NCBI GenBank assembly: GCA_937859895.1
Contig: CALMAV010000300.1
Location: forward strand, 1 to 34,667
Origin: an uncultured Bryobacterales bacterium
GTDB lineage: Bacteria > Acidobacteriota > Terriglobia > Bryobacterales > Bryobacteraceae
Length of the DNA stretch: 34,667 nt
Reading direction: 5' to 3'
Shown here: positions 10,803 to 33,138 of the stretch, one piece after another
How positions within the stretch are numbered: the stretch's first letter is position 1
Layout: each line of letters opens with the position of its first letter
Position numbers and translations under genes: made by a program
Notes under the pieces: generated by a model
The model's database searches: none
What the model was told of the DNA's origin: nothing
The model's input: only the letters and a program-made list of their open reading frames with translations

Positions 10803-11927
10803 TTATTCGCCGCTTTCTGCGGCTTGTCGCAAGGCCAGAAATGCTTCTTTGAGGGTCTGGCTTACAGCGGAATCCGGCTCGGTCAACACAAGATTTTGAT
10901 AGGCGTTAAGATAGTCAACCCTGAGGCGATGGAACAAGTGCAGGAAGTGACGCAAAAAGCCAATGCAATCGAGAACAGCGATTTCAGTACCGCCTGTTTC
11001 TTCGTAGAACGTGGCGGCGTACTCGGTTACATCCGGGTCGATCTTATCAGTAGTGACAAATAGATAATTATTGATGCGCTGCTTGGCTCTGGCGATTTTC
11101 ATTACAGCGGCGTCAATATCGTCAATGGTGACGCGCTTCATTTTCATCTCGTAGGCGGTCACGACGGCATCATCACCGACAAGACAGATTTCAACGTCGC
11201 CCAAAGAACCTGTTTGCAAATCGGCGGCATTATGCGCGTTAAGGGGTAAGATGCTTTCAGCCAAACGAGGCCCGGCGGCTTCATAGGCGGCAGCAACGAC
11301 CAACACCGGCAAGCGGCTGGCGTTCTTGCAGCTAAGGTGCTGGCTTATCAGTACAACGATTGCTTCCGAGGATAACGGTAAAGCGCCTTCAGTGCTCTCC
11401 AGTGCTTTAATGAGCGAGCTCATGCGTGAAAGTTTTTCATCGCGCAGTAGGAGTAGGACTCGGACGGTTTCAACACAAACCACATCAGCAGATGTGCGGC
11501 TTTCAGCAACGTCATCCAATAATTGGAGCGTCTTTTTGTAGAGATCGCGGGGCCTTCCAACCAGGTCAAGATTGGTGGTCAGGGGGTAATCAATGTTGCG
11601 AAGCGTCGGCGTTAAAAAGGCCGTAGTGGGGTTAACAGGCAATCTATGGTCATTGATGAACTTTGTTAGATAGCGTTCGTCGTAAGTGCGCCCGGAAAAG
11701 CTGTCTTTACCTCCGATTTCGGTATAGGGTTTGCGCGGGTCAACGCTCGGATTGTGCAGCTTTCCTAAGAGGCAGGCCATGAGCAAGCGCACCCCAGCGC
11801 GATTACTGGTGCATCGGCAAACATAATCGACGCGCTCACGAATACCCGCATCTTCAATGACGGTCTTCTGCAGGGTCGCTGTCGCCCGCTCATAGATACT
11901 CTGCAAGATTTGTTCAGGAGAACTCAT
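10803..11927 (-). CDS. Type II restriction endonuclease, PD-(D/E)XK type, possibly SacI family
   Basis: GDVEICLVGDDAVVTAYEMKMK fits D-Xn-E-X-K; N-terminal GRTYDERYLTKFINDHRLPVNPTTAFLTPTLRN recalls SacI-family enzymes; overlaps the methyltransferase stop by 4 nt. Confidence 0.7.
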   Translation of the reverse strand: MSSPEQILQSIYERATATLQKTVIEDAGIRERVDYVCRCTSNRAGVRLLMACLLGKLHNPSVDPRKPYTEIGGKDSFSGRTYDERYLTKFINDHRLPVNPTTAFLTPTLRNIDYPLTTNLDLVGRPRDLYKKTLQLLDDVAESRTSADVVCVETVRVLLLLRDEKLSRMSSLIKALESTEGALPLSSEAIVVLISQHLSCKNASRLPVLVVAAAYEAAGPRLAESILPLNAHNAADLQTGSLGDVEICLVGDDAVVTAYEMKMKRVTIDDIDAAVMKIARAKQRINNYLFVTTDKIDPDVTEYAATFYEETGGTEIAVLDCIGFLRHFLHLFHRLRVDYLNAYQNLVLTEPDSAVSQTLKEAFLALRQAAESGE

Positions 11928-12877
11928 CTAAAAAGGCTTTCTTGCGGCTTCGCCTTAAAATTCGTCCATAACACCTCTTGGCGTGACCCTTTAGTTGAAT
12001 GAATGGTTTTGTCCTCGCCTTGAGTTTTGTGCCAGCGATTAGCAGGATACAATTCATCCATTAGAGAATGGTCATAACCAGAGATGGCGACCTTAGCGTG
12101 GCATTCATTCGCAACGGCAGCAAACTCGCGGTGTTCGGCTACGTTCATTTCAAAGCCGTAGGCTTTGGAATCTCCCCGCGTGGCATGAAGGTAGGGCGGA
12201 TCGCAATAAAAAAGCGTTGTCGGGCTGTCATACAGCCGCATGACGTCAACGGCAGGCCGGTTTTCAATTTGAACCCGTAAAAGGCGCTGTGCTATGTCGT
12301 TAAGAGCTTCGACCCCGCCTAGCCAGCGTGAGACGACGCCAGACATACCCGCACGGCTGGTATCTTTGCAATTTGCCCATCGGCCTAGCGAAGCGGTTTG
12401 AGCGAGTGCAGTTCTTGTTTGGCGGGCCTTGATGTAAAAGCGTCTCGCCCGTTCCACTTCGCTGAGACCCTGCGTCGCACCATAAATGGCGCGGTGGTAC
12501 TCTTCACGCGAAAAGGGAGTGAGGCCAATGGCTCGGATTAATTCTTCGTGGCGGTCGCGCAAAACACGAAAGAAGTTCACGACATCGCCGTCAATATCGT
12601 TGTAGGTTTCGACAGATGACGGGGGCCGATTAAGTAGAACGGCGCCCGAACCGGCAAACGGTTCGCAGTAGTGATGACATTTTGGCAGGAGAGGCAAAAG
12701 CCAGTCCAGATGTGAGAACTTGCCTCCGTACCATCCAAAGACGATGCGACGGCGGCGCGGACTTCGCAGGAGAACAACATTCGCATGATCCGGGTCGGCT
12801 TCCTCATCAAGATAAATCGGTGAGGCACTACGTTTGCCGAGTTTTACGGTCTCGTCTGTCTTTACGGATTTTGCCAC
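11924..12877 (-). CDS. D12-class N6-adenine DNA methyltransferase
   Basis: FGWYGGKFSHLDWLLPLLP, YCEPFAGSGAVLLNRPPSSVETYNDIDGDVVNFFRVLRD, FYCDPPYLHATRG. Confidence 0.93.
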   Translation of the reverse strand: MAKSVKTDETVKLGKRSASPIYLDEEADPDHANVVLLRSPRRRRIVFGWYGGKFSHLDWLLPLLPKCHHYCEPFAGSGAVLLNRPPSSVETYNDIDGDVVNFFRVLRDRHEELIRAIGLTPFSREEYHRAIYGATQGLSEVERARRFYIKARQTRTALAQTASLGRWANCKDTSRAGMSGVVSRWLGGVEALNDIAQRLLRVQIENRPAVDVMRLYDSPTTLFYCDPPYLHATRGDSKAYGFEMNVAEHREFAAVANECHAKVAISGYDHSLMDELYPANRWHKTQGEDKTIHSTKGSRQEVLWTNFKAKPQESLFR

Positions 12878-15688: not shown

Positions 15689-16054
15689 TTATTTCCTTTC
15701 TGATGAGCAGTCGTTATCGCAGTGCAGAGTCGCCGGGCTAGCTTCGACGAAGAGTGCAAGTTGCCCATCCTCGATAGGGTCTTGATTGTGACGGGAGGAG
15801 AAGTCCCGCCATCGGGAGCTGTACTGATTCATAAGAGTGACGAGCTGCCGATGGGCTTGGTAGATCTCGTCGAGAGATCGGCAGTGCGGACAAGTTACAT
15901 CGACCGGGAGCGAGGACGATAAGGGATTGTAGGTAGGGTGAGTGGGGCATTTAGCGCGGAAGCTAACCGCTCCGAGTTTCAACATAAGATCATATAAGCG
16001 ATAGGAATTTTGTGGGCGAGGCGAAGCCTCCTTGACTCCTGGCCTTTTAAACAT
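15689..16054 (-). CDS. Hypothetical protein with CPTH...CPHC potential zinc site
   Basis: 121-aa ORF; CPTHPTYNPLSSSLPVDVTCPHC; 8-nt overlap with relaxase stop. Confidence 0.65.
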   Translation of the reverse strand: MFKRPGVKEASPRPQNSYRLYDLMLKLGAVSFRAKCPTHPTYNPLSSSLPVDVTCPHCRSLDEIYQAHRQLVTLMNQYSSRWRDFSSRHNQDPIEDGQLALFVEASPATLHCDNDCSSERK

Positions 16055-18806
16055 GAATACCTAAATCCTGTTTGGATGATTTCTCGACCTGCTTTTCTAC
16101 CTGCTGGATGAGCTGCTTCTGATAGTGGGCAAGTTGCTCGGATGACAGCGCTTTCTCTGTTTCATTCGGACGATGCAGGACTCGGAGAAGCTGCGCAGCG
16201 TCATCAGCAAAGACTTGGATGTCATGCTCGGGACGTGACGCGGCGACATAAGCAAATACTTCATTGAGCAAGCCGCGTAGCCGTGGATCGGAACTGTTCA
16301 CATTGATTAAGACCCGGTCTACCGTCTTCGATTGCGCTGAGTGGGAAGTCATGGAATAGGCGTGGTCGATTTGCCGATGCTCCTGCAAGTTGAACTTGAG
16401 GACCCGGCTCTTACGGTCCAGCACGAGCTCCGCATTGCCTTGGGCATCAATTGCACGAAGTGTTCCAGTGTCCCGAGTGTTGGTGCCAAGCTTCTTGTTC
16501 TTAGCGAGAAACTGAACACGTTCGCCGGCAGAAAACTCCTGCATCCGGGTCTCGAACGTGTTGACGCCATGAGCGCGCGCCGGATCATAAGTAACGACGC
16601 GGCCGTCTTGCGTCTTGACGGTGAGCTTGTTGGCATCTGTATTCCGGGCGAGGATGGTTGCGTACTGACCGGCCTTGACTCCGACCTGTTTGTTTGCGCT
16701 TCGATACTGCAGAGTGTCTCCAATCCGATAGGCGCTGGCCCGCGTGGTGTCGGCTACCGTGATGTCGCGGCCTACCAGAATCGAGAGCTGAAAGCCGTCT
16801 TTCGCTAGGCTCTCCTGCTTGCGCAACTCAGCTCGGATGGCGTTGTTCAGCTGCATCCGGCTGTCGTTGTCGGGCGAAACAACCAGCGTTCCTTTGGGAG
16901 ACAAGGCATATGCCGCCGCAATTTGCGCGAACCGTTCCCGGCTGTTGCTGTACTCATGGATGCGATTCTGCTCGGTCAGCAGACTCAGCGCTTGCTCGGT
17001 TTGGCCATGCCGAAAGCTGAGAACGACCTGCTTCAACTCCGGGCTTTTCTGGCGATAGATGCGGTTAAAGTGTGCCGTCTTCATCCCGGCTTCCTGCAGC
17101 ATCTGAAAGACACGCCCGGCTTCCACGGACGTATGCTGACCGACCTTCCCGCCGCCTGCGGGTGCGTCGTCGCCGACGAACAGAACGTGATCGTGTGGCG
17201 TCAGCGTTTTCAAGAATTCGAGAATGTTTTTGGTTGAGGCCAGGCTTGTCTCGTCCAAGATGTAGAAGGTTTTCTGAGCGCTTTGCCCGGGATGCGACGA
17301 ATGGATGTGCCGCTGCAGAGTTGTCGAAACAATGCCTTTGCCGCTCAGCTCTTGCGTGGCGCTACCGGTAGGGGCTAGGCCTCGGACCCGGAAACCTCGG
17401 GCTTCGGCGAACTCTTTGAGGATGCCGGCAGCGGTACTCTTCGCACTTCCGGCAGCGCCGTTTAACGCGACAATCTGATCGCGAGTTCCCAGGATGTCGC
17501 GCAGGATCTGCTGCCGTTTTGGATTGTCGGCGAGCTGTTGGAAGCGGCTGAGGTCCGCATTTTGCAAGATCGGCTCAACCGTGTTCTGCCCGGCCAGCAC
17601 CCGCTCAACGGTCGCCCGTTCTGCCTGGAGTGTCTCGTGGGTGGCATACCGGGCGCCGGGCGCCGTGTCCCGGTAATGATGGACCGGAACCAGCTTACCC
17701 GTTTCAATACGTTTGGCAATCTCGGCTTCGATGGCACTCCGGGGAACAGTACCGAGGCTGTAGCGGAGGGCTTCCCGCCCGAGTTGGTAGTGCTCGAAGG
17801 TGGCCAGTCGTTCGGAGAGGGATCGGGCTGCGTGGGACACGGCTCGCTCTGCCGTTGCTACCCGCTCGAGCTGCACAGGACCCCGCTCTATTGCCTCTGG
17901 AACCACCCGGAGTTCTTCCGTAAATGGCTGGCCGTGCTGAACCTGCGAGGCAATGAATTGTTCGGGCGTGAGGTCCAGTTTGGCTTCGCGGTTCCACGCG
18001 GACACAATGTGAGCGGACCGGCCGCCGCTCATACCGCGTCGTTCCATTTCCTCTTTGATCTGCTGTTTTCGATCGCTTTCGTGGTCTCGGTACTCGGGGG
18101 AGATGCCTCGGATTTCCGGAGCATAGGTGCCTTCGGCGAAGTCGATGTTGTAGCCAGCCTCTCGTCCTTGGCGTGTCAGTGAATCGTAAAAAGCTTGCAG
18201 CGCATACGACTTGGCGCGGTAAATCTCGACCGGATCAAGAGCCCGAAAGCGGTCATCGGTTTGCTGTACGTTCATCAGAACGTTGTGGAAATGAATGTGC
18301 GGTGCGCTGTATCCGTCAACCGGTCGGCTGGTCTCATGACGAAAGGTCGCAATGGCCCACTCGCCTGTGGTGATGCGCGGATTCGCCCCGCCGCCGTGTG
18401 CCTGCGCATACGTTTGGAGGGCAGTGAGTGCTTCTCGATTTGCCATCTCGGCCATCCGATAAATGCGGGGATCGCCGCCGACAATGGCGGCAATCGACCA
18501 GCTTTTCGGCAGTCCGAGGTTCACATCCCAGGCCGGAACGTGGGACGATTCGAGGCCTTCCCGCGTCAGTTTGGTGTCCCGGTGCTTAACTAATTGCTCG
18601 CCGGTAAGCGGATGTTGGCCCTCAATCATCCGCATGTATTGCTCTTCGGTAACTCGTCCAGAGAGTCCCAGCTTGGTCGCGAGTTCACCACTCCAGCGAC
18701 CGCGAGCGCTGCCATTTTCGGCGAAGTACGAGTTGCTGGCTGCTGCAAACTCGGCTTTAAAGTAATCCCGGGCCGTGCCCGCTCCTAGTTTGGCAATGAC
18801 GAGCAT
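16047..18806 (-). CDS. MobF-family conjugative relaxase/helicase (TrwC/TraI-like)
   Basis: N-terminal Tyr pairs (DYFKAEF...SNSYFAENGSARGRWSGELA), HIHFHN metal triad in APHIHFHNVLMNV, helicase P-loop LNGAAGSAKST, Walker B-like FYILDETSL. Confidence 0.93.
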   Translation of the reverse strand: MLVIAKLGAGTARDYFKAEFAAASNSYFAENGSARGRWSGELATKLGLSGRVTEEQYMRMIEGQHPLTGEQLVKHRDTKLTREGLESSHVPAWDVNLGLPKSWSIAAIVGGDPRIYRMAEMANREALTALQTYAQAHGGGANPRITTGEWAIATFRHETSRPVDGYSAPHIHFHNVLMNVQQTDDRFRALDPVEIYRAKSYALQAFYDSLTRQGREAGYNIDFAEGTYAPEIRGISPEYRDHESDRKQQIKEEMERRGMSGGRSAHIVSAWNREAKLDLTPEQFIASQVQHGQPFTEELRVVPEAIERGPVQLERVATAERAVSHAARSLSERLATFEHYQLGREALRYSLGTVPRSAIEAEIAKRIETGKLVPVHHYRDTAPGARYATHETLQAERATVERVLAGQNTVEPILQNADLSRFQQLADNPKRQQILRDILGTRDQIVALNGAAGSAKSTAAGILKEFAEARGFRVRGLAPTGSATQELSGKGIVSTTLQRHIHSSHPGQSAQKTFYILDETSLASTKNILEFLKTLTPHDHVLFVGDDAPAGGGKVGQHTSVEAGRVFQMLQEAGMKTAHFNRIYRQKSPELKQVVLSFRHGQTEQALSLLTEQNRIHEYSNSRERFAQIAAAYALSPKGTLVVSPDNDSRMQLNNAIRAELRKQESLAKDGFQLSILVGRDITVADTTRASAYRIGDTLQYRSANKQVGVKAGQYATILARNTDANKLTVKTQDGRVVTYDPARAHGVNTFETRMQEFSAGERVQFLAKNKKLGTNTRDTGTLRAIDAQGNAELVLDRKSRVLKFNLQEHRQIDHAYSMTSHSAQSKTVDRVLINVNSSDPRLRGLLNEVFAYVAASRPEHDIQVFADDAAQLLRVLHRPNETEKALSSEQLAHYQKQLIQQVEKQVEKSSKQDLGIHV

Positions 18807-18809
18807 GGC

Positions 18810-20789
18810 TTACTTCCTCTCTCCGGCGACTGGCTTGGCAGAGTTCTTGACGGGTGGCATGACGGCTTTGGGGGGAGTTGGCCAGACGGCTTGATTGTGG
18901 ATTGTGGAATTGTTGGCGATCACATGGAACGTAGGTGCGACAAAAGTTGAGTTGGTCACTACCGGCTCTGGTTCTGGCTCGACAGGATTTAGCGTCGGGA
19001 GTGGTTTTTTGACTACCTTGTTGCCCTTGCGCGGAACAAAAGCCGGGGCGGTTCCGATCTTTTGCATGATCGGCAGCTTGAATTTGACGACGAGGTTGCC
19101 GTATTTGAGGTAGCCTTCTCGGTCGCGTAGCCCGTGGAACTCAGCTGGTAAAAGCAGTTTCTCGATCACTCGCTCCGAACTGTAACTGTGTGCACCTTTC
19201 CCAGCGGCATGGGCCGGCCGAGTTTCTTTTACGCGCTCTCGTTCCACTTCTCCCACCATGTTCGAGACCCATTTCGACGCTTCATCTTCGGTCGTCCGCA
19301 TGAAGAACTTGGTAAAGGCTGCCGAGAAGATTGCCTCGGCTGTGTCGCCGTAGAGACTCTTAATTTGTGAGCGTCCCTGAAATCCCATCAAGGCTCGAAG
19401 GCTCTTGCGGCCTTCGGTTGCCATTGGCATTAGCTGCGGTAGTTTCTGAAACGTTTGCAGTTCATCGATCGCCATCAGCACGGGCGTAAGATCAGGGCGC
19501 TCGCCCTGCGAAAGCAGGTTAAGAATGAGCGAATCGAGCCATAACGATTGAATTGGACGGAGAGAATCTCGGGTCTTTTGAGTGTTGGTGACAAAAATCC
19601 AGCCCTTGCGGTGTTCGCACCAGTCGTTCAGAACGAAAGGCTTTTTCTCGGCACTTTCTTCGGGAAGCTGGCGAAGTGCGTGAGCAATCTGGGTGAGATG
19701 GCCGACCACAGCAGCCCGCTGATTGGGAGCGTTCTTGCCCATCATAGTCTCCAGTTCCGTTCCTTTCACTACGATGTCAATTAGGGGATCGGCATGCTCT
19801 AGCAGATGCGCCATCTCGTGAGAGTTCGGTTGAAAGTTGACGAGGATGTACCGCCAGATTAACTGGCTAGTGTAGGTGAAGAACCAGTTACGGTCTCCTG
19901 GCTCGCCTACGAAAAGGCTGGTGGCTTGAGCCATGGCATGGGTTCCGGCCAGCGCCGAATCGGACAAGTCGATCTCAGCGGAAGGGTTCCATGCCGGACA
20001 GCGAGCATCCATCGGATTCAGCACGACATCGCCGCGCTCTGCGTTGAAATAGCGGGAGATGAACTGCATGTGCGGGTCGCCGATAACCGCTGTTTCACCT
20101 CGTCTCGCAACCTCATCCAGGATCTGAAAGAAGAGGCTGGACTTACCTCCACCGGGATCGGCCATTGTGAGTATGTGGTTGTTCTCGTACTTCCGCTCGA
20201 TCCGAAGATACCTGCCGCTTTCGCCTTGCAGCCATTCGAGCGGGTTGCGTCGGTTCTCCAGCCGGAGAGGAAAACCATCGCCCTTTACTTGCCGATTAAA
20301 CTGCCATCGGGTTAGTAGATCCGGCCCTCGCAGCTTCACTCCGTCATGGGCTTTCTGCTTCCCCTTCTTCTTCAGGAATGTGCCGGCAACGAGCGACAAA
20401 AAGCACAAAGCGCCCCAAAGGCAGAGCGGAACCTCGGCAAACTGGAGCGGTGTCTTGCGCTCGTAGATCATCCATTGCAGCCAGTTTCCGAAGACTTGCG
20501 GCGTTGTGTAGGTGTATCGCAAACCCACGCCGTCCATGGTCTCGGGCATGGTGGCGAGGGTTGCGTCTTTGCCGTTCACCGTGATCACGCTGTAGCGTTT
20601 CGGCTTCTCTCCCCGACCGAAAAGGGAGAGCGATGGCATGTATTCGCAGGTCAGATAAGTAGCTAAGTACGAGCTCTGAATGGGTGCCAGAGTTTGATAC
20701 CAGAGGCTGAACGTCAGGGCTCCCGATAAGACGGCCAGGCCAGCCGTGAGCAGCAGACCGCCAGCTTTGGAAGGGAACACATTCGTCAT
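18810..20789 (-). CDS. Type IV coupling protein (VirD4/TraG/TrwB-like)
   Basis: N-terminal TM helices, Walker A MADPGGGKSSLFFQIL, AIDELQTFQKLPQLMPMATEGRK, GFQGRSQIKSLYG. Confidence 0.92.
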   Translation of the reverse strand: MTNVFPSKAGGLLLTAGLAVLSGALTFSLWYQTLAPIQSSYLATYLTCEYMPSLSLFGRGEKPKRYSVITVNGKDATLATMPETMDGVGLRYTYTTPQVFGNWLQWMIYERKTPLQFAEVPLCLWGALCFLSLVAGTFLKKKGKQKAHDGVKLRGPDLLTRWQFNRQVKGDGFPLRLENRRNPLEWLQGESGRYLRIERKYENNHILTMADPGGGKSSLFFQILDEVARRGETAVIGDPHMQFISRYFNAERGDVVLNPMDARCPAWNPSAEIDLSDSALAGTHAMAQATSLFVGEPGDRNWFFTYTSQLIWRYILVNFQPNSHEMAHLLEHADPLIDIVVKGTELETMMGKNAPNQRAAVVGHLTQIAHALRQLPEESAEKKPFVLNDWCEHRKGWIFVTNTQKTRDSLRPIQSLWLDSLILNLLSQGERPDLTPVLMAIDELQTFQKLPQLMPMATEGRKSLRALMGFQGRSQIKSLYGDTAEAIFSAAFTKFFMRTTEDEASKWVSNMVGEVERERVKETRPAHAAGKGAHSYSSERVIEKLLLPAEFHGLRDREGYLKYGNLVVKFKLPIMQKIGTAPAFVPRKGNKVVKKPLPTLNPVEPEPEPVVTNSTFVAPTFHVIANNSTIHNQAVWPTPPKAVMPPVKNSAKPVAGERK

Positions 20790-21139
20790 CGGGTTGCTCC
20801 TTTTCGGGTGGAGAGACTGAGCCAGCGCTCCACAATTCCCTCAGCGGAGGCTCGGGCTCGGCCTTCGATCTCCTCCTGGAAACTGTCGGTCGAGATGTCC
20901 TCACCTGAGTGCCAGGCGACCATTGTGAGCCGGTTCATCTCGCTCCCAATTGCCTGGAGAACCAGTCGCCGCCGCTCTTCAGGAGACACTTGGAGTGACC
21001 GCAGAAGCACCTCGCGGCTCATCTCGCCCGCGCTTTTCCGCAGTTCAACCGCCCGTGTTTCAAGGGCTTCTTTGTCGCTCGGGCGCAGCCGAATGTTGAG
21101 TTGCTCGGTAAAAATCCGTCCATTTTGCGCAGTTTGCAT
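20786..21139 (-). CDS. Relaxosome accessory DNA-binding protein (MobC/TrwA-like)
   Basis: FTEQLNIRLRPSDKEALETRAVELRKSAGEMSREVLLRSL; between oriT and T4CP as trwA is in R388; RBS aggagtg before the Met at 21139. Confidence 0.7.
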   Translation of the reverse strand: MQTAQNGRIFTEQLNIRLRPSDKEALETRAVELRKSAGEMSREVLLRSLQVSPEERRRLVLQAIGSEMNRLTMVAWHSGEDISTDSFQEEIEGRARASAEGIVERWLSLSTRKGATR

Positions 21140-21170
21140 GACACTCCTTTTCTGTTCTGAAATCAATGAG

Positions 21171-21208
21171 TTAGCGAAGGCTATACGCCGGATTAGCGAA
21201 GGCTATAC
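21171..21208. repeat. Two 16-bp direct repeats ttagcgaaggctatac with 22-bp period
   Basis: Exact copies at 21171-21186 and 21193-21208. Confidence 0.9.
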
Positions 21209-21219
21209 ACGGTATAGCC
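21201..21219. repeat. Inverted repeat ggctatac-acg-gtatagcc in oriT
   Basis: Perfect 8-bp arms. Confidence 0.85.
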
Positions 21220-21258
21220 GGGGCTAACCGAATGTTTGTAAATGCTAGACACCGAACG

Positions 21259-21276
21259 GGATAGCCCCGGCTATCC
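21259..21276. repeat. Inverted repeat ggatagcc-cc-ggctatcc in oriT
   Basis: Perfect 8-bp arms between the imperfect outer repeat tgctagacacc / ggcgtctagta (21243-21253, 21292-21302). Confidence 0.85.
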
Positions 21277-21430
21277 TGCAGATCCCTGGAAGGCGTCTAG
21301 TATTGTCTAAGTTCAAAAGGTGCGAAGCGCCGTCTCCCCTGGCAGAAGAAACGCTCCGGAAACACGCAACAACTCACTTATCCGACACAGCTGAGTCGCT
21401 AATAGATTGCTGACTGTGCGCTGAACTAAT

Positions 21431-23106: not shown

Positions 23107-23623
23107 TCTTCCTTTCGGTAATGAGAAACGGGGTTACATGGTAGAGAACGGCCCGGCGTTCGACCGGTCCAAAGTAACGAGAGTCAAAGCTGTTCCGGTT
23201 GAATCGGCTAATGGCCCAGAGTCCCGTTGTGTACGTGCCGAATGGGTAATGAGGGAGTGGCTGACCGGAACTGGAGAGCGTTTTCGGTGCGGTGTTCGGC
23301 AGCAAGATTCCGTGCACTGAAAAGCCAGCAACCGAGAGCGTGACGGGAGCAGAAGGGGATGCCGAGACAAGTGGCTTGAGGATCGGCAGCACCTGCCCAG
23401 GACAGGAACCTTGCGGCAACTCAAGGCCGCGGTGTTGAGCATCCAACAGCACGGGAAGGGGCAAACAAAACGCAGCATACGGACCGTTAGGAGTCTCGCG
23501 GTATAGTCCGAGCGGCACCGAGTCTGACCAGTTCGGATGAAGGTGAGCGCGAGAGAGGAGAGGCGGAGCCACCGCAAAAGAACCGGCAAGCAAGAGCGTG
23601 ATCAGGGCAGGCTTGCGCTTCAC
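23090..23623 (-). CDS. TraF-like S26 peptidase (conjugative pilin processing)
   Basis: Leader/TM then NWSDSVPLGLYRE and SRFNRNSFDSRYFGPV, typical of TraF-type S26 peptidases. Confidence 0.82.
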   Translation of the reverse strand: MKRKPALITLLLAGSFAVAPPLLSRAHLHPNWSDSVPLGLYRETPNGPYAAFCLPLPVLLDAQHRGLELPQGSCPGQVLPILKPLVSASPSAPVTLSVAGFSVHGILLPNTAPKTLSSSGQPLPHYPFGTYTTGLWAISRFNRNSFDSRYFGPVERRAVLYHVTPFLITERKIDATH

Positions 23624-24993
23624 TTGGCCACCCTCATCGGTTCGTACGGACCAGGAAACACCATGTCCTTCTTCACGGAAACAGCAAAGATCTTGCCCGG
23701 TGGAATGTTCAAGGTTGGCTGGATGTTGAGGTTCCGCTGAGTTAACTGCTCGCCCAGTTGCGACGCTTGCGTACCCACTCCGGAGGCAATGACTTGTCCG
23801 GTAGATGGGTAAGACAACACGCTGCCGTTGGTGCGATTCTGCGAAATTTGCAGCCCTGCCGAGAGCAGCGAAGTGAGAGCAACGCCGGCAATCAATCGTT
23901 TGTAATGGTTGTCAACCTTGCCCGTCAGACCAGTCGAGCCATCGGCGTCGTGGGAAGGCATCCGGTCTAAATCGATGAAAGTTCCGTCAGGAAAGTAGAT
24001 AGCGGTCCAAACAATCTGGACGCGCTTCTGCGCGTAGCTGATGTTGGAGTTGTACTCCCCAACTAAGCGGGAACCAGCGGGAATCTCGACGTAGGTTTGG
24101 GTGGGCGAATCGAAGACATCGCGCACCACTTCGGCAACCAGATCGCCCGGCAAATCGGAGACGGCGGCGGCGGGAAGCGAGGCCGGAATGACTGTGCCGC
24201 GCTGCACAACCCAGCGGCTGATCGGAACACTGCGCGTGGTTTTTAGGTAGTCGTCGCCGGTCGGTTCGCCCTCAGCGAACTTACGCTTTTCTCCTTGCGC
24301 GTTCTGTGCTCGGTAGCCATCCTGGGTCTCGCCTGAGTTCGGGAAAAGCGAAGTCGAGGGAGCCGAAGCACTGCCGACGGCGGCTGCATTCTGCCGCAAA
24401 AGGGAATCGAGTTGCGGCAAAGGAGAAGTTGTTGGATCGGAAGAAGTAATCGTAGAGCGGCTCTGCTCGGTCGCTCCCGTGGGCGCTTGCATTGCTTGCT
24501 CCTCGCGCTCTTCTCGTCGGGAGCGGGCCTGTTCCTGACGACTCCGAGCGGTTTCAACGGGAGTTCCAGATGGGTACGAAGCAGGCTGATATTGCGGTGG
24601 ATAAGCTCCCGGGACAGGTGGGTACGGACCCGCATAGCCAGTTGGCGGAAGGCTTCCCGGTTGCCCTCCAGGTGTGCCGGGTATTCCTGGAGGGGTCGGA
24701 ACACCATTTGGCAGGGGAGATGGAGGAAGGGCTGGAATGATGGGTGCCGAGCCGGTCGAGGGTGTCTCGCGCTCTACTTGGCCGCGGTTGCTGGTCGCGG
24801 ATTCAGTCGAGACAGACTGTAGCTGCTGATGCTCCGTTTGCGCTCGTTTCCTTGCCGAGCGAACATGAAAACCATAAATGACAGAAAGAATTGCGACTAC
24901 CACAGCAGTGCCACCGATCCAGACCAGGCGTGGCGAAATAGGACTGGTTACGAAAGGGATTCGACCTTTCAAATCAATTGCCATGGCTCGCAC
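23620..24993 (-). CDS. trbI: TrbI/VirB10-family T4SS protein
   Basis: Single N-terminal TM, proline-rich linker, GTVIPASLPAAAVSDLPGDLVAEVVRDVFDSPTQTYVEIPAGSRLVGEYNS. Confidence 0.92.
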   Translation of the reverse strand: MRAMAIDLKGRIPFVTSPISPRLVWIGGTAVVVAILSVIYGFHVRSARKRAQTEHQQLQSVSTESATSNRGQVERETPSTGSAPIIPALPPSPLPNGVPTPPGIPGTPGGQPGSLPPTGYAGPYPPVPGAYPPQYQPASYPSGTPVETARSRQEQARSRREEREEQAMQAPTGATEQSRSTITSSDPTTSPLPQLDSLLRQNAAAVGSASAPSTSLFPNSGETQDGYRAQNAQGEKRKFAEGEPTGDDYLKTTRSVPISRWVVQRGTVIPASLPAAAVSDLPGDLVAEVVRDVFDSPTQTYVEIPAGSRLVGEYNSNISYAQKRVQIVWTAIYFPDGTFIDLDRMPSHDADGSTGLTGKVDNHYKRLIAGVALTSLLSAGLQISQNRTNGSVLSYPSTGQVIASGVGTQASQLGEQLTQRNLNIQPTLNIPPGKIFAVSVKKDMVFPGPYEPMRVAK

Positions 24994-26023
24994 TCCTGGG
25001 GTAAGTCAGGCCCTCGTTGGTGATGCAAGCGCGTTGCTGATGCCGTCCGGCGCCAGCCAGGAGACAGGCTTTGGCGAATACCGCATCTACGATTAGTTCG
25101 TTGCCGTCCCAACGTCTGTTTGCAGGAATTGGGCCCCGCGCATCTTTCAACTGAACAACCGGTAAGCCCCGGTGCCGCGCTTCTTCCGAGAGCGAGATGT
25201 GCGTGTGGACGCCATCGTCAGCGATCTTTTCCGGTCGCAGGTAGGCTGCATCTTTGCCGTGCAGTTGAATGTGGTAGTTCCAGTTCCGCAGAGGCTTGAC
25301 AGTGCTTAACCGCCTTAGATTCTCTGCCGCACTTGCGGCTCGCTCCTCTTCTTCTTTCTTGGCTGCGACGGCCGCTTGTCGCTTGTCTTCTTCCTCTTGT
25401 GGGTAGCGGAAGGCAACACGCGCCATGTGATCGTGGCTGGTAGAAACCAGCCGAACATAGTAGGGGCGCTTGTTAGTGCCAACGGTGAGGGTCGTATCTA
25501 AACCTGCCTGTTGAGGTTTGAAAACGAGGTAGGTGAACTCGTTGGAGCCTGATCCGGATGTTCGGGAAGCGACTTCGAAGCGATGATCTCCCCAATCGAG
25601 AGCGTCATGAACGGGCGTTTCGCCAGCCTGTAAATCGAGTTCGCAGACCTGGAGAATCGCGCAGACAATAACGGGTACTCCTTGCCCGTACGTATAGAGA
25701 ACCCGGCCATCTGCAGCCTGTACCGGCGTCGCCCCACCGGTTAACCAGCCCTCGGAAAGAGAGAGGGCCATGCGAGCGGAAGGCGATAGCGGAATCTGAC
25801 GCTGCATTTCAATCGCATCAATGCTGTTCACCGTTCCTTGAATAGTGGGCGCTTGTTTACGGCGTGCCGAGGGCCGGGACGATTTCGCCGGAGAGACAGG
25901 CGATGATGGCGCATCGCTTTTTAGAACAGCCAATGCCGCAGCGTAATCAGCCGGTTTTGGGGGCGCCTGCTGTTGCGCAAATGCCATTGAGGTGGCAAGC
26001 AAAAGTCCGTGAACCTTGAGCAT
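24974..26023 (-). CDS. trbG: TrbG/VirB9-family T4SS protein
   Basis: Signal peptide, C-terminal NYHIQLHGKDAAYLRPEKIADDGVHTHISLSEEARHRGLPVV; RBS aggaggac before Met at 26023. Confidence 0.85.
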   Translation of the reverse strand: MLKVHGLLLATSMAFAQQQAPPKPADYAAALAVLKSDAPSSPVSPAKSSRPSARRKQAPTIQGTVNSIDAIEMQRQIPLSPSARMALSLSEGWLTGGATPVQAADGRVLYTYGQGVPVIVCAILQVCELDLQAGETPVHDALDWGDHRFEVASRTSGSGSNEFTYLVFKPQQAGLDTTLTVGTNKRPYYVRLVSTSHDHMARVAFRYPQEEEDKRQAAVAAKKEEEERAASAAENLRRLSTVKPLRNWNYHIQLHGKDAAYLRPEKIADDGVHTHISLSEEARHRGLPVVQLKDARGPIPANRRWDGNELIVDAVFAKACLLAGAGRHQQRACITNEGLTYPRSASHGN

Positions 26024-26036
26024 AAAGAAAGTCCTC

Positions 26037-26726
26037 CTATTGAACGGGTTGAAACGATAACTCGGTACCCGAGATGCCAAGCGGGTTCTGCTGTCGGACA
26101 GCCTCGTTCTCCGACAGGTGCATGTCGTACACCAGGCGAGCCTGCCAAGTTTTAACCGAGATCACCTGGCCGGAGAGCGAGGTCGTGGTTTCTTCCCACC
26201 AGAGTCGAATGGTTCGCTTGCCCTCGCTGGTGTCGGATGTCTTATACCGAATGCTGACCAGTTCGCCCTTCTCGGCGCGCTTAAACGGATTGTTGGCGGC
26301 AAACCAATTGGCAATTGTTGAATTCGCCTGGCTTCCATCGGCCAGGAACATAAACGTGCGGTCCCAATCATTTGCTTGTGCGGTCCTATCGGTAGTGACG
26401 GTCCGCCAGGACTCCAGAAACCGGGTGAAGGATTGAATTTTGGTTTGATCCCAAGTTGCGTCATCCATGTCAACGGGCTTGGTAACACTGCCGCCGCTCA
26501 GCCGAGCGTTGGTTGATGGCGCGAGGTAGTTAATCGTGCGAGGCAGGGTGCCCTCGTAGACGAGTCCGCCGATGGCCAGCGCTAGCGCGAAAGCCTCAGC
26601 AAAGGCGATGCGTTGCCAATTCTTTTTGGCGGCAATTGGCTCGCTCCAAACCTCCGCAAATGCCCGTTTTGCGTTTCGATAACGAGTGTCTGAAGACACC
26701 TCCGGCACAGGTTCAGTCATTAGCAT
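26037..26726 (-). CDS. trbF: TrbF/VirB8-family T4SS protein
   Basis: Single N-terminal TM, VirB8-like periplasmic domain, position between TrbL and TrbG. Confidence 0.87.
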   Translation of the reverse strand: MLMTEPVPEVSSDTRYRNAKRAFAEVWSEPIAAKKNWQRIAFAEAFALALAIGGLVYEGTLPRTINYLAPSTNARLSGGSVTKPVDMDDATWDQTKIQSFTRFLESWRTVTTDRTAQANDWDRTFMFLADGSQANSTIANWFAANNPFKRAEKGELVSIRYKTSDTSEGKRTIRLWWEETTTSLSGQVISVKTWQARLVYDMHLSENEAVRQQNPLGISGTELSFQPVQ

Positions 26727-26741
26727 GTGTTTTCCTCTGTT

Positions 26742-27920
26742 TTAGTGGTGGAAACCGTTAAAGGTCGGTGGTGAGGATTGCCCGCCACCGTGTGGCATCT
26801 GGCGAGCTGCGGAAGCCATCGTTTGTGCCATCTGTCCAGCGGCCCGACCTATAGAAACGCCTCCTCCGCCAGAAGAAGGAGCGCTCGGCTGGGGTGGAGT
26901 TGCGCCGGAAGCTCTTCCTGCACCAGCTGCTGCGCCGGAGGCCCCGCCCGAACCGGAAGCGATACCTGCGCCGCCAGCAGCCGCCCCGGCACCAGCTCCG
27001 ATCCCCGATGCAATCATGGCCGCTGAAATAGCAGCTCCAATCATGGGAGCGGTTAGTGCAATAGCGTCTCCATGCCCTAAATTCGGACCCGCACCAAAGA
27101 AGTTGCCGACTAGCGAACTTAAGTTCCACACAATCCCGGCGTAGAGCATTGCTCCGGCAGCAATCAGCCAGGCGGCACTTACTCCCGACTGTACCGGGGA
27201 GACCTTGGCTGCCTGTATCGCCCAATTGTTGGTAATAAGCGAAGCCGCACCGGTCAACATATAAAGCACCATCAACTTCGCCCCCGCTGAGAAACAGAAC
27301 GCAAAGTAGCGTTCGACGTAAGTAGTTGTATAGCGGGAGGAGCCAAAGGCCAGAAAGAAGTACCCTGCCCCAAGCGCTACATAGCTCTGAATCAGCGTCA
27401 CAACAAACTGATAAGTGATCACTAGAAAGGAGATCATCACAAGGAAAGCCGAAACCATCAGAGCGAGACCGGCTGGCACGTTACTCAGAATGCCGGTCGT
27501 CAGGCCCCGAGCCAGCAAGGTGCCGAAGATGATAAATCCCTGAAACAGAACCGCCGAGGGGCTGAGCGACTTTACGCCGCTGGCTGCCTTGCCTACGGTG
27601 ACGAACATACTCATGATGTCGTCCATCCACGCTTGCCCATGGATCAGCAAATCCAAGAAAATGCCGATTGTGAGCAGTTTGCCAGTGGTCGCCATCATCG
27701 TGGCGCGAAGGTCGCCTGAGTGATTCTTGAGTAAATCCCAACCGAAGGCACCCATTTCCAGTAGGGCTAAGGCACCAAACACTTCATTCGCATACGGCCC
27801 GACCGCCCCTGTCCACTGTCCGACCAGCTTTTGGTAAATGTCGACGAAGTCGCTTGGATCGGAGATTTGGATATTCGTTGGCGCGTATGGCCCGACTTGC
27901 GCCAGCAGCGGAAGCAGCAT
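26742..27920 (-). CDS. trbL: TrbL/VirB6-family polytopic T4SS protein
   Basis: Multiple TM helices, Gly/Ala/Ser-rich tail; start MLLPLLAQVGPYAP in a TAATG overlap. Confidence 0.87.
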   Translation of the reverse strand: MLLPLLAQVGPYAPTNIQISDPSDFVDIYQKLVGQWTGAVGPYANEVFGALALLEMGAFGWDLLKNHSGDLRATMMATTGKLLTIGIFLDLLIHGQAWMDDIMSMFVTVGKAASGVKSLSPSAVLFQGFIIFGTLLARGLTTGILSNVPAGLALMVSAFLVMISFLVITYQFVVTLIQSYVALGAGYFFLAFGSSRYTTTYVERYFAFCFSAGAKLMVLYMLTGAASLITNNWAIQAAKVSPVQSGVSAAWLIAAGAMLYAGIVWNLSSLVGNFFGAGPNLGHGDAIALTAPMIGAAISAAMIASGIGAGAGAAAGGAGIASGSGGASGAAAGAGRASGATPPQPSAPSSGGGGVSIGRAAGQMAQTMASAARQMPHGGGQSSPPTFNGFHH

Positions 27921-28243
27921 TACCAAGACCTCTTGTCGTACGTAACTGTGGGGGGTGGCTGATTTGATAGCGCTGCCTGGCAAACCGAACCTTCCGCGCT
28001 GGTAACCCAATTTGCCTGGGCTGTTTTGAGAATCGGAGCGCACTCGGCACTAATTTGTAATGCCATCTTGGGATGCTGCTGGAACCAAAATGCTAAACCC
28101 TGCGGAGTGAATGTTGAGATATCGCCGCTCCCGGCAGCCTCTACCTCGCGTACGATCTTTGAACTCTGGGCGTGGGGGTCGTAACAAGCTAGCGATCCTG
28201 AGATCGCAGGAATCAATATGGTCAGAGCTAGAGTTCTTCTCAT
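27920..28243 (-). CDS. Exported small protein in the trbK slot
   Basis: MRRTLALTILIPAISGSLAC leader; between TrbJ and TrbL; C-terminus TVTYDKRSW. Confidence 0.72.
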   Translation of the reverse strand: MRRTLALTILIPAISGSLACYDPHAQSSKIVREVEAAGSGDISTFTPQGLAFWFQQHPKMALQISAECAPILKTAQANWVTSAEGSVCQAALSNQPPPTVTYDKRSW

Positions 28244-28956
28244 TACCAGGACCTCGCATCGTAGGTCAGCTTCGGCATAGTAAAACTGCTCTGCCCGGCT
28301 TGATCGGCGGCTTGGGCATTGGCTTGTTGTGCGGCAACAGCACCTTTTGCGGTCATGTCCGCAATCATCAACTGCCGTAACTTTTGGAGTTGCGCTACCT
28401 CCTCGGTCCCGATTACATTGCCGAGCTGCAAGGCTTGATCCTGGCCGGCAGGCGTTTGCAGCATGGCCTGAATCTTTGCCATGAAGTTCCGCTCATTGTT
28501 GAGCAGGTTCGCTTGCATTCCGGCTGTGTTGAGTGAACCGTGAATAGTGTTGAGGGTGGAGGTCGACCAGTTGCCATAGGCTGCTGCGTAGGAAGTGAGC
28601 CTGGGATCGAAGGAGGGGTACATTCTTTGAAACTGGGAATCCATCTGAGCCATGCCACCTGCTAAGCCCTGTGATTGCTGCAGGACATTGGCTAAGGTTG
28701 CCAAATCAGAGGCGATTGACGTGGTGGGATGCGTCACCAGTTGCTGTCCTTCTCGGACCATCATCTGCGCCATCTGCACCGACTGGAGTGCGGTTTGCGC
28801 TTGTTTCAAGTACGACTGGCAAAGCTGCGCATAATTGAGCAACTGCGTCCATTCGGTTGCATTACCAATTCCGAATAAATGAGCGTTCGCCCGGTGAGCC
28901 GGAATAATCAAAAGCCCGGCACAGACCGTGAAAGCGATCCATCCTCGTTTACGCAT
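28243..28956 (-). CDS. trbJ: TrbJ/VirB5-family T4SS protein
   Basis: Signal peptide, HLFGIGNATEWTQLLNYAQLCQSYLKQAQTALQSVQMAQ, long helical body. Confidence 0.87.
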   Translation of the reverse strand: MRKRGWIAFTVCAGLLIIPAHRANAHLFGIGNATEWTQLLNYAQLCQSYLKQAQTALQSVQMAQMMVREGQQLVTHPTTSIASDLATLANVLQQSQGLAGGMAQMDSQFQRMYPSFDPRLTSYAAAYGNWSTSTLNTIHGSLNTAGMQANLLNNERNFMAKIQAMLQTPAGQDQALQLGNVIGTEEVAQLQKLRQLMIADMTAKGAVAAQQANAQAADQAGQSSFTMPKLTYDARSW

Positions 28957-31456
28957 ACGTGAGTTCTTCCTTGTTTTCTTTCGTGTTAGTCAACGCATCA
29001 AACTCATCGGCCCAATCCGGCAAACCCCGCATCCGGAGCCATGGGCCCGGCCACTTGGCGCCGTACCTGACAATTAGCTGATCGACAAGCGCCCGGTCGC
29101 TGTCGTTTGAAGCCGCGAGGAACGAGAGAGCAACCTGCCCGAGTTCAAGCGAGATCATGCGCTTGCCGTCCGGCGACGCGACGTAGTACTCACTCTTTGG
29201 AACAGCATGGGCAATCAGTTCCCGGTCCCAATCGTTCATGCCGAGAGATTGATAATCGCCAGCACCTTCAAGCAAGGCTTGCGGGGAAGGCAGGCAGATT
29301 TTGGTAAAACATTGCTGCAGGACAGCGTTCTTCAAGGGCGAGGCGAGAACCTTCGATAGCTCCTGCACAATGAGCCACACTGCAGTATTGAGCTTTCCGC
29401 ATTCAAATAGGTAGTTCTCAAACGCGGCTGCCGCCATGGGATGCTCCAATGATTCGCGGAACTCATCGACCGCCATCAGTGTTGGAACGGCAGAGGATAG
29501 CCGTGTACTGATACGTCCAAATAGGTAGAAGAGCACCCCGTTCATCGTCTTTTTGTCGAGACGGTAAAGTTCATCCATTTCGAAGACACAAAACCGGCTC
29601 ATCGAAATGGTGTCGGTGGATCCATCAAGCAGACCACCCAAGTAGAACTGGAGACCGGCTTGGACTTCCTTCGAAGGCACGGCCATGTGGAAACTCGTTA
29701 GTGAGCGATCACCGCTGTAGGCACTCATCCGACGCAATGTTTCACCAATATCGTTCCGCATGTCGGGCGTCACCCGGACATCGTTGAGGGTAAGTAGTAA
29801 CTCTAGAATCTGGGCACCTCGGTCTCGATCACTCGGCGTTGCCAGTTCGTGCAAGGGGCACACCTTGGTTGTGACACTGTTGGGACTTAGATCGTAGAAG
29901 TCGCCGCCCATGGCCCTACAAAGTGTGTACAGCGTTCGCTTCTTGTCAAAGCAAAAGACCTGAGCGTTGGTATATCGAAAGAACTGACTGATGGCAAGAG
30001 CTTGCAGGGTTGTCTTGCCAGCCCGGGTGGGCCCCACAATCAACGTATGCCCTACGTCTCCCACATACGGATTGAACCGGTAGGGTGTCCCCCCGCTAGT
30101 GACTCCATACAGCAGCGGAGGAGAGTGGGGAGCAAAGTACGGAGATGGATTGTACTGATGACCGCGGAACGGAGCCGACAGCGGCATCATGTGAGAGGCA
30201 TTAAAGGTGTTTAGGAGAAAGGTCCGCGGGTCTTTGTGCTGCTGGCCCGGCAGTGAACCGAGCCAAGCTGCCACAACGTTTGTCGTTTCGATCCGGCATC
30301 CGAACCCACAGTGATACTTCACGACCCGGATCAGCGCCTCGCTTGCTTCTTTCATCCGCTCGGGATCTGAATCCATCAGGATCAGCTTGGCGTGAAACTT
30401 CACGGCAACCTCTTTGCCGTGTTCGACTGCGCTCGCCACAGTCTGGGCTTCCAGTTGCATTTTGAGTGCGTATGGATCGTCGCTGCTGCCGTCGTCTACC
30501 GCGCCCGGCATAGCCTGCTTGACGATGCTCTTTTTCTTAAACTTCCACTTACTCTTGTTGACCTCGTGCTTGTCTTTTCCTGCCTGTTCATCCAGCAGTT
30601 CAGCCTGCTGGGTATAGCGAAAGTCGTAGGAAACCGAATCTAATTCGCGTAACATGCCGGCGTAGCCGTTCTCGGGAAACGAATCAATTGCAATGACGGC
30701 AATGTACTTGCCAGGTGATAACTCGCTGTCAGGATCGCCCAGGTGTGGCCTGGCCCCGCCCGTGAGATCGTCGGTTGCCAAGTACTGGTTCAAGAACGCA
30801 GGGGTTCCGGGGACCGTAAATAGATGGTCCTCAGAGTTAATACATTGCCGAAGGAAGCGGAGTAGATCGTCGTACACATACGTCACCCCGAGCCGACCAT
30901 GCTCATGGGAGGTCAAGCGCTCGACTTGCGAAAACGTATTGGACAGCAGTCCATGGATTTCGGCAACCCGCTTTTCAAACAGCGCCAGCGACTTCTCATT
31001 AGCGGAGTTCGTGCCTTTCTCTTTGGAGGAAAACAACCACGATGAGGCCTTCGCTCCCATTCGCAGGCCTGGCTCATAGACAACGGTCAGAAAGTATCGG
31101 CTGCCCCGCGTTGCCGCCTCGCCTTGCATGTTGAAACGAGCTCGGCGTTCTTGCTCAATCAGGTACGAAACAGGATCGGGCCATTCTGAAGGGGCAGCAT
31201 ACTCGCGCCGTTCGCCCCGGATCAAATGAGCTTCAATGGTCCAGCCGGACCCAAGCCGCAGGCGACGCTCCAGGCGATTAGCGACCTGCCAGCAATCGGC
31301 TAGTGGCATCGCATCCATGTCGGGACTGACGTATTCCCAGCCAGCAATGAATCGTCCAGTACTGGTCAGAACCACGCCAGGCGCCACGAGTGCAAAATAG
31401 TCCAGCAGGTCGGAGAAGCCTTTGGCGTCGGTCTGAAACTCAGATGCAATGAGCAT
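28949..31456 (-). CDS. trbE: TrbE/VirB4-family ATPase
   Basis: VGDVGHTLIVGPTRAGKTTLQALAISQFFRY, PTLMAVDEFRESLEHP, 835 aa. Confidence 0.93.
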   Translation of the reverse strand: MLIASEFQTDAKGFSDLLDYFALVAPGVVLTSTGRFIAGWEYVSPDMDAMPLADCWQVANRLERRLRLGSGWTIEAHLIRGERREYAAPSEWPDPVSYLIEQERRARFNMQGEAATRGSRYFLTVVYEPGLRMGAKASSWLFSSKEKGTNSANEKSLALFEKRVAEIHGLLSNTFSQVERLTSHEHGRLGVTYVYDDLLRFLRQCINSEDHLFTVPGTPAFLNQYLATDDLTGGARPHLGDPDSELSPGKYIAVIAIDSFPENGYAGMLRELDSVSYDFRYTQQAELLDEQAGKDKHEVNKSKWKFKKKSIVKQAMPGAVDDGSSDDPYALKMQLEAQTVASAVEHGKEVAVKFHAKLILMDSDPERMKEASEALIRVVKYHCGFGCRIETTNVVAAWLGSLPGQQHKDPRTFLLNTFNASHMMPLSAPFRGHQYNPSPYFAPHSPPLLYGVTSGGTPYRFNPYVGDVGHTLIVGPTRAGKTTLQALAISQFFRYTNAQVFCFDKKRTLYTLCRAMGGDFYDLSPNSVTTKVCPLHELATPSDRDRGAQILELLLTLNDVRVTPDMRNDIGETLRRMSAYSGDRSLTSFHMAVPSKEVQAGLQFYLGGLLDGSTDTISMSRFCVFEMDELYRLDKKTMNGVLFYLFGRISTRLSSAVPTLMAVDEFRESLEHPMAAAAFENYLFECGKLNTAVWLIVQELSKVLASPLKNAVLQQCFTKICLPSPQALLEGAGDYQSLGMNDWDRELIAHAVPKSEYYVASPDGKRMISLELGQVALSFLAASNDSDRALVDQLIVRYGAKWPGPWLRMRGLPDWADEFDALTNTKENKEELTYA

Positions 31457-31761
31457 TAACGACTCCTCCAGCGAACGGCCCGAATTGGCTTGGCAGTCCA
31501 GAAGCCCTTCTTATACCGGCGGGCTTCGTCATAGACATTCAGAAAAATAGGGTCTTGTTTCGCCAGCTCCTGTAAGCCTTGGCGGAGCAGAAGAAACAGA
31601 ACGATAGAGCCTAAAATTCCCCACCACGTCAGCAAACTGTAGCCGGTGATCAAACACAGGAAGAATGCAACTGCCAGCGCCTTCGGTTCGCATCCCAGAA
31701 GCAAATGCGGACGATTTGCACTCTCATGGAAGCGGGAGCAATATACCTCTGGGATGTCCAT
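31456..31761 (-). CDS. trbD: TrbD/VirB3-family protein
   Basis: Short protein with two hydrophobic stretches between VirB2- and VirB4-type genes. Confidence 0.82.
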   Translation of the reverse strand: MDIPEVYCSRFHESANRPHLLLGCEPKALAVAFFLCLITGYSLLTWWGILGSIVLFLLLRQGLQELAKQDPIFLNVYDEARRYKKGFWTAKPIRAVRWRSR

Positions 31762-31783
31762 GTGTTCCCTTTCCTCCTCCCTG

Positions 31784-32107
31784 TTAGATCAAGGCCCCAG
31801 CAAGGCCAGGAAACAAAGAGAGTGTGCCCGTAGCGCCTACGACGAATCCGACAGCAAACAGAACAGCCACAATACCTTTCAAGCTGGCCGTCATCTCGTG
31901 ATGATTAAACGCCCAAACGCAGCCTCCGGCAACGATCGCGATAATGGACACCGCGTACGCCATTGGGCCGGACACCTCACCGGAGAGAGCTACCATCACT
32001 TGCGTTGAAGCTAAGCGACCGCCACCGACCGCAAACGCGGGCATGTTGGCGATGAGAAATACTGTAGTCATTCCCACAGCTTTGCGAATCTGTCTATGCA
32101 TAGACAT
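31784..32107 (-). CDS. trbC: TrbC/VirB2-family pilin precursor
   Basis: Leader ending PAFA, two TM helices, C-terminus GLAGALI; RBS ggagat before Met at 32107. Confidence 0.83.
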   Translation of the reverse strand: MSMHRQIRKAVGMTTVFLIANMPAFAVGGGRLASTQVMVALSGEVSGPMAYAVSIIAIVAGGCVWAFNHHEMTASLKGIVAVLFAVGFVVGATGTLSLFPGLAGALI

Positions 32108-32133
32108 CAGGAAAAGATCTCCTTCCAAAACCG

Positions 32134-33138
32134 TTATAAGTACTCCAGCGCGTAGTCTCCGCCTGGATTCAAGCCCCGAACCCAGCAGACCTCCCGCACC
32201 TTTCTACCAACCGGGAGAGAATCCTCCCCATCAATAAAAACCACTAAGTTCACCGAGGCCGCAATGCGCTCGCGGACTGAAGCTTCGTGACCGCCTACCA
32301 GCGTTTCTAACTTGCGGAGTCCGCTGGCCGCGTCGTTGGCGTGAATGGTTGCCAACCCGCCGGAGTGTCCGGTATTCCAGGCACTCAGCAATACTCGGGC
32401 AGGTTCCTCTTCCCGCACTTCCCCAATGACTAAACGTTTCGGGATCAGCCGTAAACTGGCCACCAGCAAATCGGCTTGTGAAATCGCCGCGGTCGCTAGC
32501 AGTGCAATGTGATTTGGAAGTCCACATTGCAGCTCCGGGGTGTCTTCAATCATCACCACCCTATCTTGCGGCGTCACGAGCGACCACTCGGCAATGATGC
32601 TGTTGGCCAAGCTAGTTTTTCCTGACCCAGTAGGTCCGACCAGCAGCATATTGAACCGGTACCGGCAAGCCAGCTTAAGCGCTTGCGCGTGATTACAACC
32701 CGTAACTCGTTCCGCAAAATCAGACTTATGCCGCTTTTGGTTCAGTGGGTCCGCTCCATCAGTGAAGATGCCGGAAGCCTCAAGCGCATCAATCGAATAA
32801 ATCTGCTTCTGCCGGGTACGGATGGCAAATACCGGATTCTCTACAATCGGGGCAATTAGCCCTTCGATACGGTCGCCGGTTAACGGGAAAATCGTTTCGA
32901 GGACTGGATTCTCGTGATTAAGCGATCGCTGCCGAATCGTGGCGATCCCGTTCAGCATGAGCTCGGCCATGTTGCAGTCAAGCTGGCTCTCGCATTCCCA
33001 GCCCCGACCGAGCCGGTTTACCCAAAGGCTGCCATCGCCGTTACCGACCACATCCAGGGTGTCCGAAGCGGCGAGCAAAGGTAGCAGCGGAGCAGCCAGT
33101 CCGTGTAGGGTCGTCAATTGTCTCGCGGCTTGGCTCAT
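32134..33138 (-). CDS. trbB: TrbB/VirB11-family ATPase
   Basis: MLLVGPTGSGKTSLANSIIAEW, MIEDTPELQC, LVIGEVREEEPARVLLSAWNTGHSGGLATIHANDAASGLRKLE. Confidence 0.94.
   Translation of the reverse strand: MSQAARQLTTLHGLAAPLLPLLAASDTLDVVGNGDGSLWVNRLGRGWECESQLDCNMAELMLNGIATIRQRSLNHENPVLETIFPLTGDRIEGLIAPIVENPVFAIRTRQKQIYSIDALEASGIFTDGADPLNQKRHKSDFAERVTGCNHAQALKLACRYRFNMLLVGPTGSGKTSLANSIIAEWSLVTPQDRVVMIEDTPELQCGLPNHIALLATAAISQADLLVASLRLIPKRLVIGEVREEEPARVLLSAWNTGHSGGLATIHANDAASGLRKLETLVGGHEASVRERIAASVNLVVFIDGEDSLPVGRKVREVCWVRGLNPGGDYALEYL

Follow-up and report, generated by a model that had tools for sequence, protein, structure and literature searches.

The stretch at 21171-21335 very probably serves as oriT for a conjugative element of the MOBF/MPF_T type, whose host belongs to the Acidobacteriota, class Terriglobia. 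It contains a two-hairpin core that recurs at the oriTs of related conjugative elements and, on Terriglobia chromosomes, at Rhs toxin-immunity cassettes, and the presence of the same site in both settings suggests a possible route for toxin genes between cells. The window, i.e., the whole stretch of 34,667 nt analysed here, is a short contig of a draft genome (616 contigs, 73.6% complete).

The probable oriT of the window and its transfer genes

The features of the window that bear on this assignment are the following.

16047-18806, minus strand: MOBF (TrwC-type) relaxase-helicase (PF08751, 4.3e-61; TrwC structure 1omh, 2.5e-19)
18810-20789, minus strand: TrwB/VirD4-type coupling protein (PF10412, 6.8e-52)
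20786-21139, minus strand: gene of an accessory (RHH-like) protein in the TrwA position (structure model, NikA-like Pfam match, homologue in the second element C227)
21171-21276, no strand: predicted element-specific array of accessory-protein sites (16-bp direct repeats, inverted repeats, six half-sites)
21279-21335, plus strand: conserved oriT core, match of covariance model R1 (E = 7.9e-9, or 6.8e-8 in the whole genome; the window is among the 42 training sequences of R1, and the raw sequences show the common core and hairpin 2 without the model)
21280-21298, plus strand: hairpin 1, IR2-like and weak, AGAT-c-CCT-GGA-AGG-c-GTCT, 5' of the nic (seen in alignment A2 and in the pair counts for the family)
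21300-21309, plus strand: putative nic region GTATTGTCT/A (R388 identity; a counterpart at the homologous position of 57 out of 59 related relaxase loci)
21319-21331, plus strand: hairpin 2, GGTGC-GAA-GCGCC, 10 nt 3' of the nic on the putative T-strand (in the family, the stem covaries and the loop is of the cGNAg type)
23620-33138, minus strand, right of the oriT: MPF_T-type T4SS genes VirB10, 9, 8, 6, 4, 3, 2 and 11

The preliminary description had read this region as an oriT, and that reading holds on the nic motif, on the R388 gene order and polarity, and on the homologous core of relatives. The motif A-GTATTGTCT/AAG lies on the plus strand at 21299-21311, with the coordinates and letters first reported. 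Its 10-mer GTATTGTCTA (21300-21309) is identical at all positions to the 9 nt preceding the R388 nick plus the +1 base. This 10-mer has a single copy in the 34.7 kb, was found in none of 100 shuffles, and has an expected count of about 3e-4 on the correct strand of the 290-nt gap. The genes for the accessory protein, the TrwB-like protein and the MOBF relaxase, which retains the conserved H157, H172 and H174, follow to the left on the minus strand in the order and orientation of R388, as had been proposed, and the strand of the nic motif leads away from the relaxase genes. The nick is predicted at 21308/21309, after the ninth nucleotide. This candidate, also named at the outset, is supported by the R388-identical motif, the polarity and the homologous position in relatives, and the reading is consistent with R388, F, C227 and the family. 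The position is uncertain by 1 nt, the alternative in the window being one base earlier (TGTC/, 21307/21308) and the two choices in relatives being GTGT/C and GTGTC/.

Parts of the initial account had to be amended. The term "R388-like" applies to the nic letters, the gene order and the polarity, but the element is most closely related to Acidobacteriota MOBF elements rather than to IncW. The interval given for the oriT, 21165-21330, does correspond to it, but it splits hairpin 2, in which its right end falls, because the conserved core reaches about 21335. Within the family the window is divergent: its nic letters are those of R388, and its first hairpin is weak. By DNA folding, hairpin 1 is short, mismatched and weak, hairpin 2 folds on the plus strand, and the 59-nt core folds no better than its own shuffles. 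The alternative of a minus-strand nic, for which hairpin 2 would be the recognition hairpin, was rejected because that strand has no nic motif there and the polarity would be wrong. A Ti/RP4-like ATCCTG at 21274-21279 was judged to be a chance occurrence, and the single match of the oriT region to plasmid DNA was at chance level.

To the left of the core, the two exact 16-bp direct repeats of the preliminary description, TTAGCGAAGGCTATAC, were confirmed 22 bp apart at 21171-21186 and 21193-21208, as were its two perfect 8-bp inverted repeats, GGCTATAC-ACG-GTATAGCC at 21201-21219 and GGATAGCC-CC-GGCTATCC at 21259-21276. The half-site GGCTA[T/A] is present in six copies, in both orientations, from 21179 to 21274. 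These repeats (21171-21276) are plausible accessory-protein sites. The inverted repeats of 21201-21276 were rejected as the counterpart of the R388 IR2 and assigned to this element-specific array. The accessory gene has an ATG at 21139, and the listed open reading frame starts at a TTG at 21166. The N terminus of its product is modelled as beta-strand, helix, helix (pLDDT about 85 there, mean 73), which is consistent with an RHH fold, and its NikA-like Pfam match is sub-threshold (E = 0.0084). The accessory protein encoded beside the core of C227 is 40% identical to that of the window. Since the arrays of the window and C227 differ while the core is kept, the data fit a division in which the core would be read by the relaxase and the array by the accessory protein.

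In the mechanism that we propose, the RHH-like accessory protein would bind the repeats of the 21171-21276 array and bend or melt the adjoining DNA. The element's own MOBF relaxase would recognise, on the plus strand, hairpin 1 together with the 9-nt GTATTGTCT and, as the position and the R388 identity suggest, cleave the core at 21308/21309. The covalently bound T-strand would leave rightward, 5' end first, and trwABC, lying to the left, would enter the recipient last. With this direction of exit, hairpin 2, which follows the relaxase by 10 nt, would reach the recipient before any other structure. It probably acts on single-stranded DNA, its candidate roles being relaxase or helicase loading, termination or recircularisation, and priming.

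The same contig also encodes a serine resolvase (178-870), a histidine kinase/response regulator pair (6516-8322), a tyrosine recombinase (8535-9491) and a D12 adenine methyltransferase (11924-12877).

The two-hairpin core in MOBF elements of Acidobacteriota

The closest relatives of the window relaxase belong to Acidobacteriota MOBF elements (35 to 44% identity). The best plasmid matches are from Acidisarcina and Granulicella (35 to 39%), and 80 further relaxase loci in public genomes, nearly all from Acidobacteriota, show 38 to 44% identity. The core of this family lies in the gap preceding the accessory gene, on the strand that corresponds to the plus strand of the window. It consists of a mini-hairpin CCCN-NNN-NGGG, the 9 nt GTGGAGTGT, the putative nick, 9 to 14 nt, and a second hairpin with a cGNAg loop, such as CGGTGC-GAA-GCACCG. 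The 9 nt also occur as ATGGAGTGT, GTGACGTGT and ATCAAGTGT, followed by C, and a GTGTC-type nic is conserved between the hairpins. The exact TATTGTCT was rejected as the family motif because most relatives have GTGTC.

Both stems covary. In alignment A2, made of 42 cores that all come from relaxase loci and include the window and C227, 91.9% of the cells are paired versus 32 to 56% with slid partners, and there are 41 double-change cells, matched by none of 500 shuffles. The IR2-type hairpin 5' of the nic is clear and covarying in the family, whereas that of the window is weak and has a mismatch. The triloop of hairpin 2 is GNA closed by C-G in 55 of 70 cases (81 loci), and most of the others are ANA; the GNA rule applies to the strand bearing the nic motif. 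DNA mini-hairpins of the GCGAAGC type are noted for their stability.

With the covariance model, 57 of the 59 relaxase loci, part of which had served for its training, gave exactly one core each, and there was no other match in the 699 kb, with E-values from a short calibration. All 57 loci have it on the strand opposite the relaxase; the remaining two loci lack it. A second element of the same genome (G000), C227 (locus L050), has the conserved core with a nic region 85% identical to that of the window. Its accessory repeats, CGTAATACC, are about 21 bp apart and unlike those of the window. pACPOL1, the Granulicella plasmids pACIX903, pACIX904 and pACIX905, and ICE-like loci carry the same two-hairpin core in the same place, on the same strand and with the same gene order, but these Acidobacteriota elements differ from the window in having a GTGTC-type nic rather than TATTGTCT and a strong hairpin 1.

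The model gave no convincing match in more distant Acidobacteriota MOBF loci (28 to 30% identity) or in the loci of R388, an R388 relative, Nostoc, Marinobacter and Sphingopyxis; the best score over all these loci was 11.2 bits (E = 0.94). Among 199 genomes searched across the phylum, the core was confined to two families of the same class. The PLSDB gene tables examined list no oriT for the Acidobacteriota MOBF plasmids, and our literature search found no oriT paper for this phylum. With this core, the MOBF elements of soil Acidobacteriota have an oriT signature that is open to testing.

Relation to the nic sites of R388 and F

In R388 (IncW, MOBF11), GTATTGTCT/A lies 9 nt after the IR2 stem, and the window has identical letters. 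The two also share the oriT-accessory-trwB-trwC order with its polarity and, going by the model of the window protein, probably an accessory protein of RHH type, and the family hairpin sits 9 nt before the nic, as in R388. In IncW pIE321, the 33-nt R388 nic is found on the strand opposite mobF, trwB and the accessory gene, the same polarity as in the window. In contrast, the window relaxase is only distantly related to that of R388, the accessory sites are unrelated, and the strong IR2 hairpin next to the R388 nic has a weak and mismatched counterpart in the window. The R388 hairpin GCGCACC-GAAA-GGTGC, directly 5' of GTATTGTCT, is absent from the window; only the 9 nt plus A are common to both, and R388 has no counterpart of hairpin 2 in the bases after the nic.

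The F plasmid (MOBF12, TraI) is nicked at GTGGGGTGT/G, 9 nt after a hairpin arm, and its GTGGGGTGT is close to the family GTGGAGTGT. It differs in its accessory proteins, T4SS type and sequence 3' of the nic. The same 9-nt rule holds for GTATTGTCT in R388, GTATTGTGT in C227, GTGGAGTGT in the family and GTGGGGTGT in F, and it matches the single-stranded DNA site of F TraI, which spans -2 to +9 (PMC12117103). R388-type and F-type nic sites are joined in this way by one rule, natural intermediates included. The base after the 9 nt varies: GTATTGTCT/A in the window, GTATTGTGT/T in C227 and GTGGAGTGT/C in most relatives. In R388, nucleotides 12 to 25 are essential and the +1 base must be a purine (PMC4176350). 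Since C227 has T and most relatives have C at this position, either the +1 preference of the family must differ, or the predicted nick is shifted there.

Relaxase-free cores at Rhs toxin-immunity modules

When 237 genomes from the family and 299 from the class were searched, strong cores proved numerous. Among 81 fetched Terriglobia core loci, 48 have neither relaxase nor coupling genes in the fetched DNA, and we refer to these as orphans. To the right of the oriT core, 31 of the 48 have an Rhs C-terminal core, 0.6 to 2.7 kb away and always on the minus strand, as against none of the 32 relaxase loci; these counts come from an Rhs HMM trained on 13 sequences of these same loci, with which NCBIfam TIGR03696 agrees in genome G008. 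The HMM was used in place of a strict Rhs regular expression, which missed most modules. Because Rhs is always to the right and on the minus strand, the orphan core closes a module made of Rhs body, toxin tip, immunity gene and core. Genome G008 (6.7 Mb) has 11 Rhs sites, and each of its four orphan cores is found no more than 1.5 kb from one of them, in zones that make up 0.42% of the genome.

The Rhs-linked relaxase-free cores are those of L171-L210, L230, L232, L251, L252, L256 and L258, on Terriglobia chromosomes. Near the cores of L188, L202, L203, L205, L210, L244 and L249, no Rhs or transfer gene was detectable. The 17 orphan loci without an Rhs match include several cut by contig ends or truncated transfer loci. 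Pfam identified Rhs repeats, a Ribonuclease (barnase-type toxin) plus Barstar in L199, Colicin_E5 in L173 and HNH in L184, and L173 has two cores bounding successive modules. In pairs of orphans, homology extends over the left flank and the core as far as the foot of hairpin 2 (its end lies at a median of +2 nt, and at +6 nt or less in 118 of 177 pairs). It is absent over the variable toxin and immunity stretch and resumes in Rhs. The orphan cores alone, in an alignment fitted to the model, have 93.2% paired cells and 65 double changes. The comparison shows that the cores share structure and position as well as orientation and association.

Rhs polymorphic-toxin cassettes with orphan modules, as described in passages of PMC3967940 and PMC3482391, have the same conserved Rhs body, variable 3' toxin plus immunity, and stacked displaced modules as here; the modules found here differ in being closed by an oriT-like core. 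The same passages ascribe Rhs toxin change to homologous recombination with cassettes; those searched in PMC3482391 make no mention of relaxases, and those in PMC3967940 none of conjugation. The comparative literature credits Rhs cassette change to recombination only, and our search found no paper linking Rhs loci with oriT.

One explanation, to which we give somewhat less than even chances, is that the orphan cores serve as oriTs in trans, where MOBF relaxases would mobilise or exchange toxin-immunity cassettes. It draws on the exclusive link of minus-strand Rhs to relaxase-free loci, the clustering in G008, the toxin/immunity pairs of L199 and L173, and the homology that breaks off at hairpin 2. 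In addition, over 130 nt of the left flank in L232 and L258 recur beside the conjugative oriT of L237, and a copy of oriT on the chromosome is a site at which TrwC integrates DNA (PMC3264647). Against it stand the 17 of 48 orphans without Rhs and the small number of orphans, only 5 out of 44, that match left flanks of the sampled conjugative oriTs. We infer that a resident MOBF relaxase could nick the orphan core, upon which hairpin 2 would leave first, followed by the immunity gene, then the toxin tip and then the conserved Rhs region. In the recipient, Rhs homology and a matching core, as target of relaxase-catalysed integration, would allow cassette exchange. If orphan cores are cut, TrwC-type integration at a chromosomal oriT together with Rhs homology would suffice for this. 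Active Rhs-linked copies would then provide a mechanism for the movement of Rhs toxin-immunity cassettes between cells, and the transferred DNA would carry toxin and immunity genes in its leading region. The wider proposal, that relaxase-free MOBF oriTs end the Rhs modules of Terriglobia chromosomes and that conjugative relaxases thereby spread and exchange toxin cassettes, is equally tentative. The in-trans reading of the orphan cores complements the oriT reading of the window and does not replace it.

It is improbable that the core is instead an RNA element at a transcript 3' end, as a terminator or stabiliser. In transfer loci as well as at Rhs modules, the core does lie 3' of a minus-strand gene, and its hairpins would form in RNA too. 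However, searches found no intrinsic terminator at the core and no Rfam match, between the hairpins there is a conserved nic-like GTGTC, and in transfer loci the core is always upstream of the relaxase genes. Moreover, the GNA loop rule on the plus strand is the one known for DNA mini-hairpins, whose stability is reported in passages of PMC4686876. A recombination or transposition site of a Y1/RAYT transposase or another cassette recombinase, captured by plasmids, is still less credible: the structure is a cassette-like mosaic and Y1_Tnp/RAYT-like genes occur near some Rhs-linked cores (L184:4887-5600 by Pfam; L172 and L207 by sequence), but these are only a few, 57 of 59 MOBF loci have the core at the oriT position, and the 9-nt motif matches MOBF nic sites.

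In many cores, among them those of L191, L199 and other orphans, the nic region is enclosed by an inverted repeat, for example GGGGTGAC-GT-GTCACCCC; such a repeat might be extruded to form a cruciform whose loop contains GT.
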